NCBI GenBank assembly: GCA_913058135.1
Contig: CAJXPR010000034.1
Coordinates: 1-32,200 of the forward strand
Origin: an uncultured Gammaproteobacteria bacterium
Lineage (GTDB): Bacteria > Pseudomonadota > Gammaproteobacteria > Pseudomonadales > Pseudohongiellaceae
Reading direction: 5' to 3'
DNA: 32,200 bases
Shown: positions 6,309 to 32,200 of the stretch, piece by piece
How positions within the stretch are numbered: the first letter of the stretch is position 1
Layout: every line of letters begins with the position of its first letter
Notes under the pieces: model-generated
What the model saw: the letters and a program-made list of their open reading frames with translations, nothing else
What the model was told of the DNA's origin: nothing
Databases searched by the model: none
Translations under genes and position numbers: made by a program

Positions 6309-6683
6309 TCAGTCATCACCTGACCCGATCAGCAGCGTGTTGCCTTCGCTGTCGCGCAGCAGCGCAAAACTCTGCTCGGGGTTCCAGGGGGCGGGCCTGG
6401 GCTGTTGTAACCCGTGTACACCGCGCGCGCACAGGTCTTCGTAAGTGGTTTCCACATCGTCAACGGCAAGCACCAGGCTGGGTACTTCGTTAATCAGATC
6501 ATTTTCGCGCTGTGTCAGTACAATCGCCGTCTCGGCGCCGGGAATGCCCAGCTCGATCCAGCGCCAGCCGGTTTTGTACGGAGTATTCTGGAGTATCCTG
6601 AAACCCAGCTTTTCGGTATAAAAACGCAGTGCACGCTGCTGGTTACTGACCGGCAACTGGGTAAATTTGATAAACTGCAACAT
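6309..6683 (-). CDS. VOC-family (glyoxalase/bleomycin resistance fold) protein
   Basis: This 124-residue cytoplasmic protein has the paired beta-alpha-beta-beta-beta layout of the vicinal oxygen chelate superfamily. Visible signatures are LPVSNQQRALRFYTEKLGFRIL at the N-terminus and FALLRDSEGNTLLIG at the end, the common VOC closing motif. The second module contains LVLAVDDVETTYEDLCARGV. The usual first-strand histidine ligand is not obvious, so metal chemistry is uncertain. The ATG at 6683 was chosen because GAGG stands 7-8 bases upstream and homology begins at MLQFIKFTQ. It lies 38 bases downstream of the amidohydrolase gene and is likely co-transcribed with it. Confidence 0.85.
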   Translation of the reverse strand: MLQFIKFTQLPVSNQQRALRFYTEKLGFRILQNTPYKTGWRWIELGIPGAETAIVLTQRENDLINEVPSLVLAVDDVETTYEDLCARGVHGLQQPRPAPWNPEQSFALLRDSEGNTLLIGSGDD

Positions 6684-23332: not shown

Positions 23333-25597
23333 ATGATCCGCTTGACTGCCAGGCTCGGTACCGTGGTCGCTGCCGCCGTCATACTGGCCGGGGCGCCTGT
23401 TCCTGCCATCTCCCAGTATGGTGCTCCTGATGGTGAGTGGCATACCTGGGGCGGTGATCATGGTTTTACCCGCTATTCGGCGCTGGACCAGATCGGTGCC
23501 AGCAATGCCGGTGATCTTGAAATAGCCTGGCGCTGGCGCGCACTACCGTTGGGTGATCGGCCCGACCGCAATCTGAAAGCAACGCCCCTGATGATCGACG
23601 GGATGCTTTACGTGCCATCGGGCCAGCATCAGGTAGTGGCACTGGACCCGGCCACCGGGCAGGAGATCTGGCGCTATACACCACTACCCGCGAGCGTTGA
23701 TGATCGCGGACTTGGTCTGGGCAGCCGTTCACTGGCCTATTGGCGTGAGGGTGACGAAATCCGGATTTTTCACAATACGCTGGACGGACGCCTATTGTCC
23801 ATCGATGCGCGAACCGGGCTGGCAGATCCTGGCTTTGGTGACAATGGCACCGTCATGCTGCGTGAAGGTCTGTATCCTGATGGCAGTGATGCCGATTCAG
23901 TAGGCTCTTCCTCGCCGCCTGCGGTGGTCGGTGATGTTGTGGTCGCTCAGGTTGTGGGGACCATTACCGCGCCCAATCAGCAAGCCACGCCGGGGCACAT
24001 CCGCGGCTACGACGTGCGCACGGGTAAGCTTGTATGGCGGTTCAACACCATTCCGCAGCCCGGCGAGCCCGGACACGAGAGCTGGCAGGGTGATGCATGG
24101 CAACATACCGGCAATACCGGTGTGTGGTCGATGATGAGTGTGGATACCGACACCGGTTTTATCTACTTGCCAGTGGAGGCCGGATCCAATGACTTCTATG
24201 GTGGCCATCGTCATGGTGACAATCTGTTCTCGCAAAGTCTGGTGTGTCTTGACGGACGCACTGGCGAGCTGGTCTGGCACTATCAACTAACGCATCACGG
24301 CCTGTGGGATTATGATCCACCATCGGCACCGATTCTGGGCGACATTGTGGTAGACGGTCAACGCATTAAAGCCGTCACCCAGTTGACCAAACAGGGCATG
24401 TCCTTTGTGTTTGACCGGATCACTGGAGAGCCCGTGTGGCCGATTGAAGAGCGTGCGGTGCCGCCCAGCGAGGTGCCCGGCGAGCGTGCATCACCCACTC
24501 AGCCGTTCCCGACCTTGCCCGAGCCCTATCTGACTCAGGGATACCACGAAGAGGAGCTGATTGACTTCACGCCGGCTTTGCGGGAGGAGGCTTTGGCTAT
24601 CGCTTCGCAGTACGTGACAGGACCCATTTACACGCCTCCGACACCACTGCGTGACGGTGGCACGCAAGGCACCTGGGTCAACCCTGGCTACCAGGGAGGC
24701 TCCAACTGGAACGGGGCCGCCTTTGATCCGGACACCGGGACCATGTTCGTCCCCCTGCGCAAGGCACCCATGGCAGCAGCATTACTGACACCTGACCCCT
24801 CACGAACCGATTGGCGATACCTGCGGGCACCGTCAGTGTTCATCCAGGGGCCTCGGGGCTTGCCCATTGTCAGACCACCGTGGAGCCTTGTCACGGCCAC
24901 TGACATGAACCGCGGACGACATACCTGGTCCCGCAGCATTGGTCCGGCCTCTGACTATATTCGCCAGCACCCCGATCTGCAGGGGCGGGACCTGGATTTT
25001 GACAATATGGGTCATCCGATGATCCGTCCGTCGCCTCTGGTCACTGCCACATTGCTGTTTCTTGCTGAAGCCGGCCACCTCAGCGGAGATCCGGGCGGGC
25101 CCATGTTCCGTGCCTACGATAAACGCACGGGCGAGGTGGTAGCGGAAATTGAGCTGCCCGCGAAGGCCTCCGGCGCGCCCATGACCTACTTCCATGAAGG
25201 GTATCAGTATATTGTGATTGCGGTAGCCACAGCTGAACATCCGGCGGAGCTGGTAGCGCTGGCGTTGCCTGGTGCAGTGACCCGGTTTGCTGAGGAACCA
25301 GCCGCGTTGCAGGATATGTCCGGCCAGGCGCCCGCCATTAGACTGACGGAACAGCAAACTACGGCAGCCGCGCAGCAGTTTTTACAAATGTGTGCGACCT
25401 GTCATGGCGAGCAGGGGCAGGGCCTGGATGGTGGTTCTGCTCCCGCGCTGATGAATCTGCCGGACCCGGCCTCGATACGTACCATCATCGAACGGGGCGG
25501 CGTCGAAATGCCGGCATTTGCGCTACAGCTTGATGAGGCCGACATGGATCTGCTGGCGCGCTATGTGGTCATGCTGGCTGCCGGGAATCAACCATGA
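23333..25597 (+). CDS. PQQ-dependent dehydrogenase with C-terminal cytochrome c domain
   Basis: This 754-residue periplasmic quinoprotein of the glucose/quinate dehydrogenase-like branch has a signal peptide (about 1-25). DGEWHTWGGDHGFTRYSALDQI opens the propeller. HHGLWDYDPPSAPIL carries the active-site Asp equivalent to the WD(M/Y)D site of membrane glucose dehydrogenase, and GEPVWPIEERAVPPSEVPGE is branch-specific. The C-terminal class I cytochrome has CATCH (Cys687, Cys690, His691) and Met in GGVEMPAF. It oxidises an unidentified sugar or alcohol and transfers electrons to heme c. The ATG at 23333 sits five bases after AGGGG (23323-23327); an ATG at 23330 is possible. The stop overlaps the DJ-1 gene's ATG (ATGA). 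Confidence 0.9.
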   Translation: MIRLTARLGTVVAAAVILAGAPVPAISQYGAPDGEWHTWGGDHGFTRYSALDQIGASNAGDLEIAWRWRALPLGDRPDRNLKATPLMIDGMLYVPSGQHQVVALDPATGQEIWRYTPLPASVDDRGLGLGSRSLAYWREGDEIRIFHNTLDGRLLSIDARTGLADPGFGDNGTVMLREGLYPDGSDADSVGSSSPPAVVGDVVVAQVVGTITAPNQQATPGHIRGYDVRTGKLVWRFNTIPQPGEPGHESWQGDAWQHTGNTGVWSMMSVDTDTGFIYLPVEAGSNDFYGGHRHGDNLFSQSLVCLDGRTGELVWHYQLTHHGLWDYDPPSAPILGDIVVDGQRIKAVTQLTKQGMSFVFDRITGEPVWPIEERAVPPSEVPGERASPTQPFPTLPEPYLTQGYHEEELIDFTPALREEALAIASQYVTGPIYTPPTPLRDGGTQGTWVNPGYQGGSNWNGAAFDPDTGTMFVPLRKAPMAAALLTPDPSRTDWRYLRAPSVFIQGPRGLPIVRPPWSLVTATDMNRGRHTWSRSIGPASDYIRQHPDLQGRDLDFDNMGHPMIRPSPLVTATLLFLAEAGHLSGDPGGPMFRAYDKRTGEVVAEIELPAKASGAPMTYFHEGYQYIVIAVATAEHPAELVALALPGAVTRFAEEPAALQDMSGQAPAIRLTEQQTTAAAQQFLQMCATCHGEQGQGLDGGSAPALMNLPDPASIRTIIERGGVEMPAFALQLDEADMDLLARYVVMLAAGNQP

Positions 25598-26175
25598 ATG
25601 TCGGCATCTATATTTATGATCAGGCTGAGGTGCTCGATTTCTCCGGGCCGTTCGAGGTGTTTACTACCGCCAATCGGATTTGTGTTGACGTTGAACCGTT
25701 CACGGTCTTTCTCATCGGCGAGTCCTCGGGAGTGGTCCGGGCGCGTGCAGGCTATCGGGTGCTTGCCGACTACAGTATCAATGACCACCCGCCGTTGGAT
25801 GTGCTGATCGTTGCCGGAGGCATGCATCAAGATGAAATGCGCAAGCCACAGGTCATCCGCTGGTTGACTGCGGCAGCAGAGCAGGCACAGCTGACGGCAT
25901 CTGTGTGCACAGGCGCCTTTTTGCTGGCAAAAGCAGGCGTATTGGCGGGTGGGCAGGTCACCACGCATTGGCAGGATATCAGCGAGCTGCGGGAACTGTT
26001 TCCTGGCCTGACGGTGATCGAAAACGTACGTTGGGTGGATACCGGTGATCGTGTGAGTTCGGCCGGGATCTCCGCAGGCATCGACATGAGCCTGCATCTG
26101 GTCAGTCGTTTGCACAGTCCCGAACTGGCCAGGCTCACGGCCCGCCAGATGGACTTCGACTGGCAACACAACTGA
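25594..26175 (+). CDS. DJ-1/PfpI family protein, GlxA/isonitrile-hydratase-like
   Basis: This 193-residue class I glutamine amidotransferase-like protein (DJ-1/PfpI fold) has nucleophile Cys105 in SVCTGAFLLAKAG. An early acid is in the DQAEVLDFSGPFEVF motif, which is typical of isonitrile hydratase and of the N-terminal half of GlxA-type AraC regulators. No DNA-binding domain follows. Possible activities are isocyanide hydratase, glyoxalase III-like or deglycase; the motif cannot choose. A four-base overlap with the PQQ dehydrogenase gene shows translational coupling. The gene has no signal peptide, so it acts in the cytoplasm. Confidence 0.88.
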   Translation: MNVGIYIYDQAEVLDFSGPFEVFTTANRICVDVEPFTVFLIGESSGVVRARAGYRVLADYSINDHPPLDVLIVAGGMHQDEMRKPQVIRWLTAAAEQAQLTASVCTGAFLLAKAGVLAGGQVTTHWQDISELRELFPGLTVIENVRWVDTGDRVSSAGISAGIDMSLHLVSRLHSPELARLTARQMDFDWQHN

Positions 26176-26214
26176 ATATTGCCTGAGTACAGTATTGAGG
26201 CCCGAGGAGGTACT

Positions 26215-26658
26215 ATGAAGAGCCAAGCAAACCCCCGTCCGACATCATCGGCGGTTTCCCGGCCGACAGCCGCAGCCAGCGACGAGGCGCGACGTCATTT
26301 TGAGCGTCTGCTGCAGTTCGAGACTGACTGTTGGGACGTGCATCATGCTATCAGCAACGGACGCCAGGATTTTGTCCTGCTCGATGTGCGCGGTGAAGCG
26401 TTGTTTGGCCTCGGCCATATCGAAGGCTCGGTCAATCTGCCACATGGCAGAATCAATGACGATAGCCTCGGTGGGTTTGCAGACGCCACTCTGTTTGTCG
26501 TGTACTGCGCCGGGCCGCATTGCAATGGCGCCGACAAAGCTGCCGTCAGGCTGGCCAAGCTGCATCGGCCGGTTAAAAAAATGATTGGCGGCATCACTGG
26601 CTGGATTGACGAAGGATTCAGTCTGGTGACCGACGTGACGACTACCGCTGCAAGTTGA
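26215..26658 (+). CDS. Rhodanese-like sulfurtransferase domain protein
   Basis: This 147-residue single-domain rhodanese has an approximately 25-residue Ser/Ala-rich N-terminal extension. Active-site Cys98 lies in VVYCAGPHCNGADKAAVRLAKL, with a second cysteine (Cys103) in the loop. LLDVRGEALFGLGHIEGSVNLPH and IGGITGWIDEGF are the other family motifs. The reaction is sulfur transfer from a persulfide or thiosulfate to an acceptor; the partner is unknown. The ATG at 26215 is preceded by GAGGAGG (26204-26210). It is 39 bases downstream of the DJ-1 gene and on the same strand, so likely in the same operon. Confidence 0.9.
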   Translation: MKSQANPRPTSSAVSRPTAAASDEARRHFERLLQFETDCWDVHHAISNGRQDFVLLDVRGEALFGLGHIEGSVNLPHGRINDDSLGGFADATLFVVYCAGPHCNGADKAAVRLAKLHRPVKKMIGGITGWIDEGFSLVTDVTTTAAS

Positions 26659-26704
26659 ACCAGACCACAGCCAGACCACAAAAAAGCAATAGCAGGACAG
26701 CAAC

Positions 26705-28051
26705 ATGACACAGCAAGAGCCTTTTGATTTCCAGCCAACCCTGACCGGCAGCACGATTACCTTGCGGCCATTGCGGGAGGACGATCTGGAGCCTCTGTAC
26801 GCGGCTGCCAGTGATCCACTGATCTGGGAATTGCATCCGGACCCGCTACGCTACCAGCGCGAAGCTTTCGAGTCGCGCTACTTCAGTGGCGCCCTTGACG
26901 CTGGCAGTGCCCTGGTGGCCACTGACAACAGCACAGGTGAAATTGTGGGTTGTTCGCGATATTACGAGTGGGACCCGGTGGCGGAAGAGGTTGCCATTGG
27001 TTTCACGTTTCTGGCGCGCAGCCGTTGGGGTGGGGCGACCAATCGCGAAATGAAGACGCTGATGCTTGATCATGCTTTCAAGTGGGCAAAGCGGGTCTGG
27101 TTTCACATCGGCAAGGATAATCGCCGCTCCCGACGTGGCACAGAAAAAATCGGTGCACGTTTCTCCCATGAAGCGCAGAAGGAGATCGGTGGTCGGGTGC
27201 TGGACTATGCCTACTATTACATCGACCGTCCCCCGGCGCCGCTTGACGAAGTGCTGTCGTTCAGCAAGCGTATAGCGCGCGACGCCGGTGCTCTGATGCT
27301 GGCGGAACTGCAACGCGGTGACGGTCCGGCAACGCACTTCAAGCACGAGGGGCAGGAGCTGGTGACCGAGGCCGATATCAAGGTCGATCAACTGATCTGT
27401 GACGCCATCCGCCAGTCTTACCCCGGGCATCAGATCCTGGCCGAAGAGTCGGCGCCGGATCTTGAGCAGCTTAGCCAACTGCAGGGGCCGCTGTGGGTTA
27501 TCGATCCGATTGATGGCACTGTAAACTACGCTCACGGCCATCAACACTCGGCGGTCTCCATCGCCTGGGTTGTCGATGGTGTTTTGCAGACCGGTGTGGT
27601 TTATAACCCGTACAACGATGAGATGTTTTCGGCGTCCAGGGGGCAGGGTGCCACCCTGAACGACAGGCCTATTCATGCCGCGCAAAAAACGGCGATGCGC
27701 CGGGCACTGTTCGCCACAGGCTTTCCCTATATAAAAAGTGACATGCCACGGCTGGTCCGGCGCCTGGACGTGATGCTCTCGCATTGTGCGGATCTTCGGC
27801 GCATGGGGTCTGCTGCCCTGGATATCTGCTGGGTGGCCGCAGGGCGTCTCGATATTTATTACGAAAATCTGAGTGTCTGGGACTTTGCCGCTGCGCAGTT
27901 GATCGCGATTGAGGCCGGCGCCCGTTATGGACATTTCCTGCCGGTACCCGATGGTGTCAGCCCGGTGTTCCATAACAAGGCCATACTGGTCAGCAACGAC
28001 AAGCTTTATCAAGAAGTAAAAGATCTTTTGCTGCAGGTTGAGAACCCGTGA
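26705..28051 (+). CDS. Fusion protein: GNAT acetyltransferase plus inositol monophosphatase-family domain
   Basis: This is a 448-residue two-domain cytoplasmic protein. Residues 1-175 are a RimJ/RimL-like GNAT fold: ITLRPLREDDLEPLYAAASDP, GEIVGCSRYYEW, RSRWGGATNREMKTLMLDHAF and the DNRRSRRGTEKIGARF end. Residues 180-445 are an inositol monophosphatase/bacterial CysQ-SuhB-like phosphatase: VTEADIKVDQLI, Glu247-Glu248 in LAEESA, the DPIDGTVNY motif (Asp267, Asp270), and Asp393 in VWDFAAAQLIAIEAG. All main metal ligands are visible. AAGxxhxEAGG is altered to AAAQLIAIEAGA. The ATG follows AGGA by seven bases. No stop or frameshift separates the halves. It is the last gene of the same-strand run and is followed by a convergent exporter. 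Confidence 0.9.
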   Translation: MTQQEPFDFQPTLTGSTITLRPLREDDLEPLYAAASDPLIWELHPDPLRYQREAFESRYFSGALDAGSALVATDNSTGEIVGCSRYYEWDPVAEEVAIGFTFLARSRWGGATNREMKTLMLDHAFKWAKRVWFHIGKDNRRSRRGTEKIGARFSHEAQKEIGGRVLDYAYYYIDRPPAPLDEVLSFSKRIARDAGALMLAELQRGDGPATHFKHEGQELVTEADIKVDQLICDAIRQSYPGHQILAEESAPDLEQLSQLQGPLWVIDPIDGTVNYAHGHQHSAVSIAWVVDGVLQTGVVYNPYNDEMFSASRGQGATLNDRPIHAAQKTAMRRALFATGFPYIKSDMPRLVRRLDVMLSHCADLRRMGSAALDICWVAAGRLDIYYENLSVWDFAAAQLIAIEAGARYGHFLPVPDGVSPVFHNKAILVSNDKLYQEVKDLLLQVENP

Positions 28052-28063
28052 GTCTGCCGCGGG

Positions 28064-30406
28064 TCAATTGACGGGAGCCCGGTGCCGGCGCGTGAGGAAG
28101 CGCTCGCGCAATTGCTCCAGACGCGACAGCAGGACCGGCAGAAAAGTGAGATCCAGGACAAGTGCCAGCACCACGATCGGTACCAGCAACCTTGCCGCCT
28201 GCTGGAAATACAGGGTGCTGGCCAGCAACAGTATCAATGCTCCCAGGGTCAGCACAGCGGTGGTGATGATCAATGCCGGGCCGGCTTTGGTTATTGCCCC
28301 CTGTATGGCAGTGTCCACGCTCAGACCCTGCTGGCGTTGACGCTGATAGGTACTCAGAATATGAACCGTATCGTCAACAACCAGTCCGATACTGATACTG
28401 AACAGCATCATCACAAAGGGATCCACTGTACCTACCAGCAGTCCCCATGCACCGAACACCAGGGTCGCGGGCAACAGATTCGGGATGACACTGATCAGGC
28501 CAAAGTAAAGGCTTCTCAGGCCGATGCTCAATGCGAGGGTAATCATCAGCAGACTGATCAGATAGCTCTGTATCAACTCGACCGTGACGGCACGGTCCAT
28601 ACGGGCAAAAAGTAATGTGTTGCTGCCCCGCAGCAGACGCATGCTGCCATCAGCAAAGGTGTTGTTGAAGTAGTCGCCGATCGCCTGGTCCAGATCAATA
28701 ATGCCCTGATTGCTCATCGGTCGAGTAGTGATGAAAAACCGTATGGTGGAAAAATCACTGTTTATAAAGTTGGTCAGTGCATAGCTGTCCCTCTGCACAG
28801 ACACGTAGTTCATCAGGTGTTGCTCCACCAGGTCGGCTGACTCGGGCAGCCGATAGTTGTCGGAATTGTCACCGCCTTGCGAGCCTTCCAGCGTATCGTT
28901 GATGGTTTTTACCACCTCTACCAGACTGGCCACCTCAAACACATCATCGCGCTCACGCAACCACGACGCAAAGGCATCGACGCGTTGCAGAAACGCGGGC
29001 TCTATGGCGCCGTTAGTTTCGTTTGCTGCATTGACCGGGTCGGTGGCGACAATACCGTAGGTCATGCCGGTGCCTCGCTGCATGCGCTCGTTCAGCAGTT
29101 CATAGTAGGCATGCAGGGGAGAGTCCTGGTCAATGAAGTCCAGTCGATCAAAGTCCGGTTTGTTGAGCGGAAGCATCGCGGCGGCCATCAGGCCGGCAGC
29201 CATGACGATGGTAAAGATCCGGTGCGGGTAGCGTGCCACCAGGCGCTGGCACAATGCCAGAAAGGTTCCTGCCAGCCGTATTGCGCCGCTCGGTCCGCCC
29301 ACGGCCATGACCAGCGCCGGGAAGCTGAGAAAGCTAAGGAGCCAGGCAAACATGACTCCCAGCGCGACGATTGTGCCAAACTGGCTGATAGCAGGGGCCG
29401 AGGCATAATTGAGGCTGGCAAAACCGATCGCGGTGGTAAGTGCAGCCAGCGTCACCGGACGCAGGTTGAACGCCAGGCTGTGATGCATGGCCTGGTTGAT
29501 ATCCGCACCTGCGGCAAGTTGCTGGCGGTACACCGATAAAATATGGGCGCTGTTGGCAACCGCGATGATAACCACTACCAGGGGCGCCATGACTGACACA
29601 CTGTTCAGGGCAATGCCCGCCAAGGCCAGCGTACCGACCGTGCAGACGATGGTGAGCAGCGTCACCAGCAGAATGCAGGCGCCCTGACGCACAGACTGAA
29701 AGCAATAGCAGATGAACAGCACACATAACAGAATTACCAGCGGCAGCAATCGGGTCAGGTCCCGTATCATGGCCTCGCGGGTAGAGGTTTCGAACAGGGC
29801 TTCGGCACCCGGGGCGAACACAATGTCAGGGTAGTCCGCACGCAGGTCATCCAGGACCTCGTCAATGCCCTCAGCGATCTCGCGATTTTGAGCCGAGCTG
29901 CTGGTGCTCGAGGTCAGCCGCGCAGAGAACAGCGCCAGGTCTGCCGCGGGTGACACCAGTATGCCATTGATGAAGGGGTCTGCCATGGCCTTGTCGCGTG
30001 CCGCCTGCATGGCACCGGCGTCGACTTCATGGAAATTGCGGAAACGGCCTGGAAACAGGCCTATTTCTCCAAACGGCGAGTCGTATGCCACCACCGAGCT
30101 GGCACGACCGGTGTAGGGAATGCGCCGATATTCGCGATGCAGTGCACCCAGTGCCTCCAGTATGGGGGCCGAAAATACGTTGGTGGGGCCCGACGCGGCG
30201 ATCACGGCAATGCTGATGTCCTGACGGCTCGGGAACTCGGCGGCCAGCTGGTCGCGCTCGCTGACATAGGGGTCGTTGTCGCCCAGTAGCACGGATACCC
30301 GGGTGTCGAAACCGATTGTGGGCAGGCTCAGCGCCAGCAGCCCGGACATCAGCAGGCAGGCCGCAAGCCAGAGCACACGGTATTTTATCAGCAACTCCGG
30401 GATCAC
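28064..30406 (-). CDS. RND-superfamily exporter (MMPL/HpnN-like)
   Basis: This inner-membrane protein has 780 residues from the GTG at 30406. It has two tandem halves, each a periplasmic loop followed by a group of helices. The first helix is near residue 8-28, and the first loop carries GFDTRVSVLLGDNDPYVSERDQL, as in COG1033-type exporters. The second half ends in SIGLVVDDTVHILSTYQRQRQQG. It probably exports lipids or hydrophobic compounds by proton drive. The GTG forms a four-base GTGA overlap with the LysR stop, a coupling that favours this start over the ATG at 30454. In the first half the corresponding helix reads IAVANSAHIL, without the Asp pair. Confidence 0.87.
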   Translation of the reverse strand: MIPELLIKYRVLWLAACLLMSGLLALSLPTIGFDTRVSVLLGDNDPYVSERDQLAAEFPSRQDISIAVIAASGPTNVFSAPILEALGALHREYRRIPYTGRASSVVAYDSPFGEIGLFPGRFRNFHEVDAGAMQAARDKAMADPFINGILVSPAADLALFSARLTSSTSSSAQNREIAEGIDEVLDDLRADYPDIVFAPGAEALFETSTREAMIRDLTRLLPLVILLCVLFICYCFQSVRQGACILLVTLLTIVCTVGTLALAGIALNSVSVMAPLVVVIIAVANSAHILSVYRQQLAAGADINQAMHHSLAFNLRPVTLAALTTAIGFASLNYASAPAISQFGTIVALGVMFAWLLSFLSFPALVMAVGGPSGAIRLAGTFLALCQRLVARYPHRIFTIVMAAGLMAAAMLPLNKPDFDRLDFIDQDSPLHAYYELLNERMQRGTGMTYGIVATDPVNAANETNGAIEPAFLQRVDAFASWLRERDDVFEVASLVEVVKTINDTLEGSQGGDNSDNYRLPESADLVEQHLMNYVSVQRDSYALTNFINSDFSTIRFFITTRPMSNQGIIDLDQAIGDYFNNTFADGSMRLLRGSNTLLFARMDRAVTVELIQSYLISLLMITLALSIGLRSLYFGLISVIPNLLPATLVFGAWGLLVGTVDPFVMMLFSISIGLVVDDTVHILSTYQRQRQQGLSVDTAIQGAITKAGPALIITTAVLTLGALILLLASTLYFQQAARLLVPIVVLALVLDLTFLPVLLSRLEQLRERFLTRRHRAPVN

Positions 30407-31317
30407 TGGTCTGGCCCGTAGGTCCCGAACGTGCCTGCGTTGTCTTCCTGACATAATGCTATCCAGTTACGGATGCCAGTGCTGCGGAATTTCTGTTTGT
30501 GCAGGATAAAGTAAAAGCGACGCATCCAGTCGCGTTGTGGCGCGTACAGCGGCAGCAGACTGCCGCGGCGGAACGCTTCCTGCAGGGTAATGCGTGACAG
30601 ACAGCCGATACCCAGGCCGGCTTCGACGGTGCGCTTGATGGCCTCGGTATGTTGCAGTTCCAGGCGCAAATTGAGCCTGGGCATCAGTCCATACATGGCG
30701 TGTTCAAAGGCCTGGCGGGTCCCGGAGCCGGCTTCGCGGATGATCCAGTCAGCCGCCACCAGATCGTCGTCGCTGAGTGTTGGCCGTCCCGCCAGCGGGT
30801 GGTCCGGGGCGCAGAACAGGCTGAGTTCATCGTCGCGCCAGGGAATGACTTCCAGCGTCGAATCCTGCAGTTCACCTTCCACCAGGCCAATGTCGAGCTC
30901 AAAATTGCGCACCCGTTGGGTGATCAGCGAGGTGTTTTCCACGGTCAGGTCGACGCGTGAACCAGGATAGCGGTTCATGAATTTGGCCATGATCGGCACT
31001 GCCAGATAGTTGCCAATGGTCAGTGTGGCACCCACCTTGATATGGCCCACTTCGCCTTGCCGGGCCAGCAATTGCTCAAATTCCGTGGCCTGGTTCATTA
31101 GTGCCACGGCATGCGGGCGCAGGCTTTTGCCAAAATCATTAAGTTGCAGGCGTTTGCCGACCCGGTCGAACAGCTGCATGTCGAAGCGCTGCTCCAGCTC
31201 TTTCAGCGCAGCACTGGCGGCTGACTGGGACATGGACAGGCTGTCGGCTGCGTGTGATACGTTTTCGTGCCAGGCGGTCGCCAGGAAAACTTCGATCTGC
31301 CGCAAGGTGTAGTGCAT
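30403..31317 (-). CDS. finR: LysR-family regulator, FinR-like
   Basis: This 304-residue LysR regulator has an N-terminal helix-turn-helix (FLATAWHENVSHAADSLSMSQSAASAALKELEQRF). Its effector domain contains KVGATLTIGNYLAVPIM and GLGIGCLSR. In Pseudomonas the LysR regulator divergent from fpr is FinR, which activates fpr under oxidative stress and sulfite; the same divergent layout is seen here (154-base gap). A perfect ATC-N9-GAT site lies in the gap. The ATG is preceded by GGGGAGA at about ten bases. The stop overlaps the RND exporter start. Confidence 0.83.
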   Translation of the reverse strand: MHYTLRQIEVFLATAWHENVSHAADSLSMSQSAASAALKELEQRFDMQLFDRVGKRLQLNDFGKSLRPHAVALMNQATEFEQLLARQGEVGHIKVGATLTIGNYLAVPIMAKFMNRYPGSRVDLTVENTSLITQRVRNFELDIGLVEGELQDSTLEVIPWRDDELSLFCAPDHPLAGRPTLSDDDLVAADWIIREAGSGTRQAFEHAMYGLMPRLNLRLELQHTEAIKRTVEAGLGIGCLSRITLQEAFRRGSLLPLYAPQRDWMRRFYFILHKQKFRSTGIRNWIALCQEDNAGTFGTYGPDQ

Positions 31318-31349
31318 GACAGGGTTTCTCCCCGTGGTAACGAGATGTT

Positions 31350-31364
31350 ATCGTAATTTCCGAT
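31350..31364. promoter_or_regulatory. Predicted LysR-type (ATC-N9-GAT) binding site between finR and fpr
   Basis: ATCG-N7-CGAT at 31350-31364 is an inverted repeat that fits the general LysR box (ATC-N9-GAT, with T-N11-A core). It lies 33 bases from finR's ATG and 107 bases upstream of fpr. TATAGC at 31395-31400 may be an fpr -10 element. Confidence 0.55.
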
Positions 31365-31471
31365 TAACCTTATAGCATTAAATCATTTTACTGGTATAGC
31401 GTGACGGTTTACCATGCAGCCATTAAAATTTGCCTCTTTTCTTTTCATGCGACGTCTTACAGGATTTTGAA

Positions 31472-32152
31472 ATGGCTGCGATATCCAAACAGAGTGTGAC
31501 CAGCGTTCATCACTGGAATGAATCCCTGTTCAGTTTTACCACAACGCGAGACAAAGGTCTGCGTTTCGAGAATGGCCATTTCGTGATGGTGGGTATGGAA
31601 GTGGAAGGCCGTCCGCTGATGCGTGCCTACAGCATTGCCAGTGCCAATTATGACGAAGAGCTGGAGTTTTTCAGCATTAAAGTGCCCGATGGTCCGTTAA
31701 CATCAAAACTGCAAAATATCCAAGTGGGCGATGAAGTGCTGGTCAGCCGCAAGCCTACCGGCACTTTGACGGTCGATAATATCCTTCCCGGCAGAAACCT
31801 ATATTTGTTGGCCACGGGAACGGGCTTGGCGCCGTTTATGAGTATTATCAAAGACCCTGACGTTTATGAGCGCTTTGATAAAATTATTCTGACCCATGGC
31901 GTGCGTTATGAAAACGAACTGGCGTATCAAGAATTTATCAATGACCACTTGCCCAACCATGAATATTTTGGCGAAGCCGTGCGAGAAAAGTTAATTTACT
32001 ATCCCACCGTCACCCGCGAGGCTTATGTGAATCGGGGACGGCTCACTGACTTGATCAGCAGCGGTAAATTGATGCGTGATATTGGCTTGCCAGCGCTGGA
32101 TACTGAACATGATCGGTTTTTGCTGTGTGGCAGTCCGGCCATGCTGAAAGAC
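31472..32152 (+). CDS. fpr: Ferredoxin-NADP+ reductase, 3' end missing
   Basis: The first 227 codons of the FAD-dependent ferredoxin/flavodoxin-NADP+ reductase are present. FAD-binding motif MRAYSIASANYDEELEFFSIKVPDGPLTSKL is followed by the NADP-binding LYLLATGTGLAPFMSIIKD and LLCGSPAMLKDL near the end. The enzyme exchanges electrons between NADPH and ferredoxin or flavodoxin. The ATG follows AGGA (31461-31464) by seven bases. The real gene is about 258 residues long, so roughly 30 C-terminal codons are lost at the adapter join. Codons are more AT-rich than in neighbouring genes. It is divergent from finR. Confidence 0.93.
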
Positions 32153-32200
32153 CTGTCTCTTATACACATCTCCGAGCCCACGAGACAGGCAGAAATCTCG
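32153..32200. other. Illumina Nextera read-2 adapter, not genomic sequence
   Basis: CTGTCTCTTATACACATCT (32153-32171) is the Tn5 mosaic end, CCGAGCCCACGAGAC (32172-32186) the Nextera linker, AGGCAGAA (32187-32194) an 8-nt i7 index and ATCTCG (32195-32200) the start of the P7 arm. The 48 bases match the known construct without gaps. Read-through adapter was left in the assembled contig. Confidence 0.98.

Follow-up and report, generated by a model that had tools for sequence, protein, structure and literature searches.

A contig end in a metagenome-derived assembly: Nextera adapter read-through, most likely after a cross-species join within fpr

The closest described counterpart of the sequence analysed here is the i7-side adapter of Illumina Nextera and Nextera XT libraries, which combines the transposase read-2 portion, the N703 index and P7. 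The read-trimming command of PMC6460022 gives the same three adapter strings, among them the 34-base mosaic end plus arm, and an entry in the index table of PMC7589761 gives N703 as AGGCAGAA. The mosaic end itself derives from the ends of IS50, according to a passage in PMC3046479. We studied a 32,200-base stretch of DNA (the window), which is the complete contig C34 of a 188-contig, 3,779,811-base assembly. A sequence comparison of its last 48 bases (32153–32200) with the Nextera i7 adapter showed all 48 of 48 bases alike and in the same order, with 0 gaps and 0 mismatches.

The adapter tail of the contig

The tail can be divided into four consecutive parts, all on the forward strand: the 19-bp Tn5 mosaic end that starts the adapter (32153–32171, exact), the 15-base Nextera i7-side (read 2) linker CCGAGCCCACGAGAC (32172–32186, exact), the 8-base i7 index AGGCAGAA or N703 (32187–32194), and the six bases ATCTCG with which the P7 arm begins (32195–32200, exact). 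The initial annotation had proposed just this ungapped order of mosaic end, linker, 8-nt index and P7 start, which the exact match confirms. It had also taken the end of the window for an assembly end; since the window is the whole of C34, which stops at 32200, this is the case. At the left end of C34 the adapter was looked for and none was found.

By chance, the 40 fixed adapter bases have an expectation of ~6e-18 per genome of this size. The mosaic end occurs in the window as a single copy at ≤3 mismatches, and 0 copies were seen in 100 shuffles. The window tail ends 6 bases into P7, whereas the tails of certain other assemblies reach up to 28 bases further, through the remaining P7 and into an A run; in these longer tails P7 goes on as TATGCCGTCTTCTGCTTG. 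As expected of Nextera read-through, the i7 arm stands directly after the mosaic end in the window, and i7 and i5 arms are both present in the genome. For practical purposes it is certain that the 48 bases are adapter contamination and hold no biological feature.

Adapter ends in the host genome and in other public sequences

Across the host assembly, the mosaic end is found in 256 copies at ≤2 mismatches (126 forward and 130 reverse, 188 contigs searched together), and a reversed-pattern control in the same assembly gave 0 copies. We placed 125 of the 256, comprising 100 listed sites on C1–C65 and 25 left ends of C66–C100, and every one lies at a contig end and points outwards. The 100 sites on C1–C65 are all exact; their 51 reverse copies end ≤53 bases from the left contig end, and their 49 forward copies start 26–51 bases from the right contig end. 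Counted by ends, the mosaic end is carried by 76 of 100 left ends (C1–C100) and 49 of 65 right ends (C1–C65), starting 21–53 nt from the end. The full mosaic end is lacking at 24 of the 100 left ends (2 partial and 22 with none, C34 among these), and adapters therefore cannot account for all contig breaks.

The tails carry essentially a single index pair, AGGCAGAA / TCTACTCT. The i7 index of the window is common to 87 of the 88 full i7 tails of the genome, with a one-base variant, AGCCAGAA, as the single exception; the i5 index, which we take to be S504 in reverse reading, is present in 33 of 34 sufficiently long left-end tails, again with one exception that is a one-base variant (TCTACCCT). 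Tail lengths at the left ends of C1–C100 cluster at 45–50 nt for both arms (mean 47.9 for the 59 of 76 left tails of ≥44 nt), and certain other assemblies have tails of 53–76 nt. The cluster perhaps reflects the k-mer of the assembler minus the bases common to junctions.

The DNA next to the adapters carries the mark of the transposase. According to PMC3046479, Tn5 insertions made in vitro bear a weak resemblance to the native target preference AGNTYWRANCT. At 94 distinct host-genome junctions, we scored the 9 bases that precede the adapter, with expectations taken from sequence farther inside. Four positions deviate significantly, in keeping with Tn5 target preference: G at -9 (46/94 vs 27.0 expected), A or T at -5 (60/94 vs 40.8), A or G at -4 (72/94 vs 46.4) and C at -1 (48/94 vs 26.2). 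Among the seven scored positions, -7, -6 and -3 showed no clear bias at the 94 host junctions. The same four positions are biased among the matches listed from two public collections, in 155 junctions of the GTDB species collection and 132 of IMG/VR, counting those with 80 context bases and tails no longer than 85. The window's own junction, CTGAAAGAC, fits at only 3 of the 7 scored positions.

The adapter pattern with any index is present in both the GTDB species collection and IMG/VR, in at least 120 stretches of each, and among the matches listed the end to which the adapter points lies ≤100 bases away in 127 of 129 (GTDB) and 123 of 125 (IMG/VR) cases. Contigs of the SRR3933xxx MAG series that terminate in adapter carry it as the window does, with tails of 48–51 (80 loci), and the index pair AGGCAGAA + TCTACTCT recurs in records of SRR3933379 (L059, L141) and SRR3933267 (L107, L132), so this series is a possible source of the window. 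A blastn query with the window's final 100 bases matches 68 of 50,697 phage records; in the 20 matches listed, the alignment starts at query base 46 and is nearly all adapter. Megablast of the 48 bases against 72,556 plasmid records gave 10 matches, one of them over ≥80% of the query.

Individual records illustrate where such tails end up. The complete E. coli plasmid NZ_LC520282.1 has the adapter at 47685–47731 (97.9% over 48 bases) within an annotated hypothetical protein. In a 121,820-base IMG/VR contig (3300028837_000933), a full i7 adapter with P7 and an A run lies internally at 6346–6393, so two pieces of this viral contig may be joined via the adapter. Named isolates also have contigs ending in adapter, namely Myceligenerans indicum I2 and Streptomyces megasporus NRRL B-16372, in which the adapter starts 52 and 55 bases from the contig end, respectively.

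The ancestry of the mosaic end is the one point in favour of reading the 48 bases as a natural Tn5/IS50 end, or the end of another mobile element. The outside and inside ends of IS50 differ from the mosaic end by 3 and 4 bases; the mosaic end being unlike either, we rejected a natural Tn5/IS50 end. Natural IS50 ends also come without arm, index and P7, all of which are synthetic and all of which the window tail has. Moreover, the 48-mer had 0 megablast matches in 20,395 E. coli records, and the placed 125 of 256 genome copies sit at contig ends, so that a natural end has a vanishingly small probability. The initial view that the tail is library DNA and not genome is upheld by four independent lines: the 256 genome copies, with the 125 placed ones terminal and essentially one index pair; the tails in unrelated genomes and viral contigs; the Tn5 bias; and an adapter-free genome described below.

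Host and foreign parts of the fpr frame

The adapter interrupts a frame that starts at 31472 and contains PF00970 (residues 15–98) and PF00175 (residues 112–227), a FAD/NAD-binding protein of the ferredoxin-NADP reductase kind. Divergent from it, on the reverse strand at 30403–31317, lies a host LysR-type regulator (PF03466/PF00126) with 96–98% amino acid identity to the nearest three genus members; it is FinR-like. When 25001–32152 was compared with three genus members, most of it was collinear at 77–86%. The 5′ part of fpr, with the oxidoreductase FAD-binding domain, is of host type (31472–31677, forward strand), as judged from Pfam and identity within the genus: residues 1–65 are 92–100% identical to fpr of 13 genus members, and the first 190 nt are 98% identical to one of them, G007. 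In a 14th genus member examined, G006, a close fpr copy was not found.

The 3′ part (31655–32152, forward strand) has a different source. Residues 80–227 are only 62–66% identical to the 13 host-genus proteins. When 390 genomes of the order were searched with the 147-residue 3′ part, a 100% match came from G341, whose genome is in two contigs and belongs to another family of the same order. Its DNA matches 498 of 498 nt; eight additional matches of this search have 71–77% identity over 31655–32152. We therefore assign this part to a foreign, G341-like flavoprotein reductase resembling fpr, cut by the adapter after codon 227. The initial annotation had implicitly treated the preceding fpr as the host's own, a premise that fails for the last 498 nt given their identity to G341. 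G341 also answers the comparison with related genomes that had been suggested for the tail: with the same preceding 498 nt, it reads on with fpr sequence at the window's adapter position, and the adapter is absent. A genuine C-terminal variant of Fpr is out, as the fpr of 19 of 19 relatives and of a further contig of the same bin, C180, extends 29–30 residues past the adapter point.

Between the two parts lies a 23-nt stretch, 31655–31677 on the forward strand, that is exact in both G007 and G341 and is the probable site of the join. G007 is identical to the window from at least 31600 to 31677 and G341 is exact from 31655, which places the join within 31655–31677 or close by. Different best relatives on either side of a short identical stretch are what a chimera would leave. 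A join of this kind directly upstream of the adapter is very likely.

Contig C180 holds what appears to be the matching piece. It has 3,498 bases, and here too a Nextera adapter stands at the end. Its LysR regulator shares 99% identity with two genomes of a third family, G095 and G175, and its 5′ fpr part only 61–66% with the host genus, while its 3′ fpr part reaches 91–95% to the nearest three genus members; at 1321–2091, the third organism's LysR and 5′ fpr appear to be fused to host-type 3′ fpr. The DNA of C180 tracks the genus member G003 up to 2933, and its similarity to G095/G175 ends at 1868. The join falls at about 1528–1560, corresponding to 31679–31711 of the window, which is near the window's join and at other bases. 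An exact 20-mer common to C180 and the window, at 31670–31689, overlaps the 31655–31677 stretch. No intact assembled copy of the host fpr was found. Taken together, window and C180 indicate that the host-type fpr is split over two contigs with different foreign partners, the joins lying within ~60 bases of each other. Two natural exchanges would explain this less well than PCR chimeras or a short-k tangle in the assembly.

Origin of the contig end

The most likely structure of the contig end is a cross-species chimera with adapter attached, and we are highly confident that Nextera read-through after a cross-species join in fpr is its origin. The sequence shows that Tn5 cut a library fragment at the junction; the insert was shorter than the read, which therefore continued across the mosaic end, the i7 arm and N703 into P7. 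Adapter trimming of the reads was presumably absent or incomplete; with reads not fully trimmed, the assembler would have retained the junction, and the contig, judging from its sequence, ends inside the adapter. The host contig was probably joined to the fragment from another family in or near the 23-nt fpr stretch, by a k-mer misjoin or as a PCR chimera. As the foreign fragment is joined upstream, the adapter-bearing read would belong to the second organism.

Template switching between host and G341-like templates during library PCR is a variant of this explanation that could have made the join. Together with the adapter, the 498-nt foreign piece is about as long as one library fragment of assumed size, and switching would be feasible at a 23-nt match, but the nearby join of C180 to a third organism is simpler to obtain from a tangle of shared k-mers. 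We thus regard template switching as a possible route and not the favoured one.

An alternative accepts the adapter as an artefact and takes the fpr mosaic to be real, through recent homologous recombination of ~0.5 kb between families from a G341-like species. Both fpr parts are in frame and near their sources (98% of the first 190 nt with G007, 498/498 nt with G341), and short identical stretches serve homologous exchange too. The joins in the window and in C180 lie close together yet at different bases, which slightly lowers our overall confidence and slightly raises the probability of recombination. Against it stands the fact that C180, from the same bin, has the host-type 3′ half and host-type downstream sequence behind a third organism's 5′ half, ~60 nt off; recombination would need two natural exchanges so close together, without any intact assembled fpr copy. 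The foreign piece also stops exactly at the adapter, and the remainder of the G341 fpr locus is absent from all other contigs of the host genome. Real recombination is accordingly quite improbable in our estimate, and read-through after a cross-species join remains the preferred reading.

Three other adapter ends were compared with five genomes. At one, host-genus DNA aligns to base 1498 of 1500, that is, 2 nt from the junction, and at another to 1419–1456 of 1500, or 44–81 nt from it; plain host ends therefore exist as well. The notion that every adapter end is chimeric is thus unsupported, with host-genus DNA free of adapter near the junction at 2 of these 3 ends. At the third, the right end of C1 (L002), matches to the five genomes, three of them of the genus, reach base 752 of 1500 only. 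Its GC content is 47%, and that of the other 29 adapter-bearing end loci (L001–L030) is 51–61%. The DNA at this end is possibly foreign or mobile.

For this genome, the adapter tail is a quality flag rather than biology, and the contig ends need trimming. If cross-species joins adjoin adapter ends, removing the 48 bases alone leaves foreign DNA behind. Genes should not be called in the last 546 bases of C34; the frame that ends in ...MLKDLSLIHISEPTRQAEIS is a false fusion protein.
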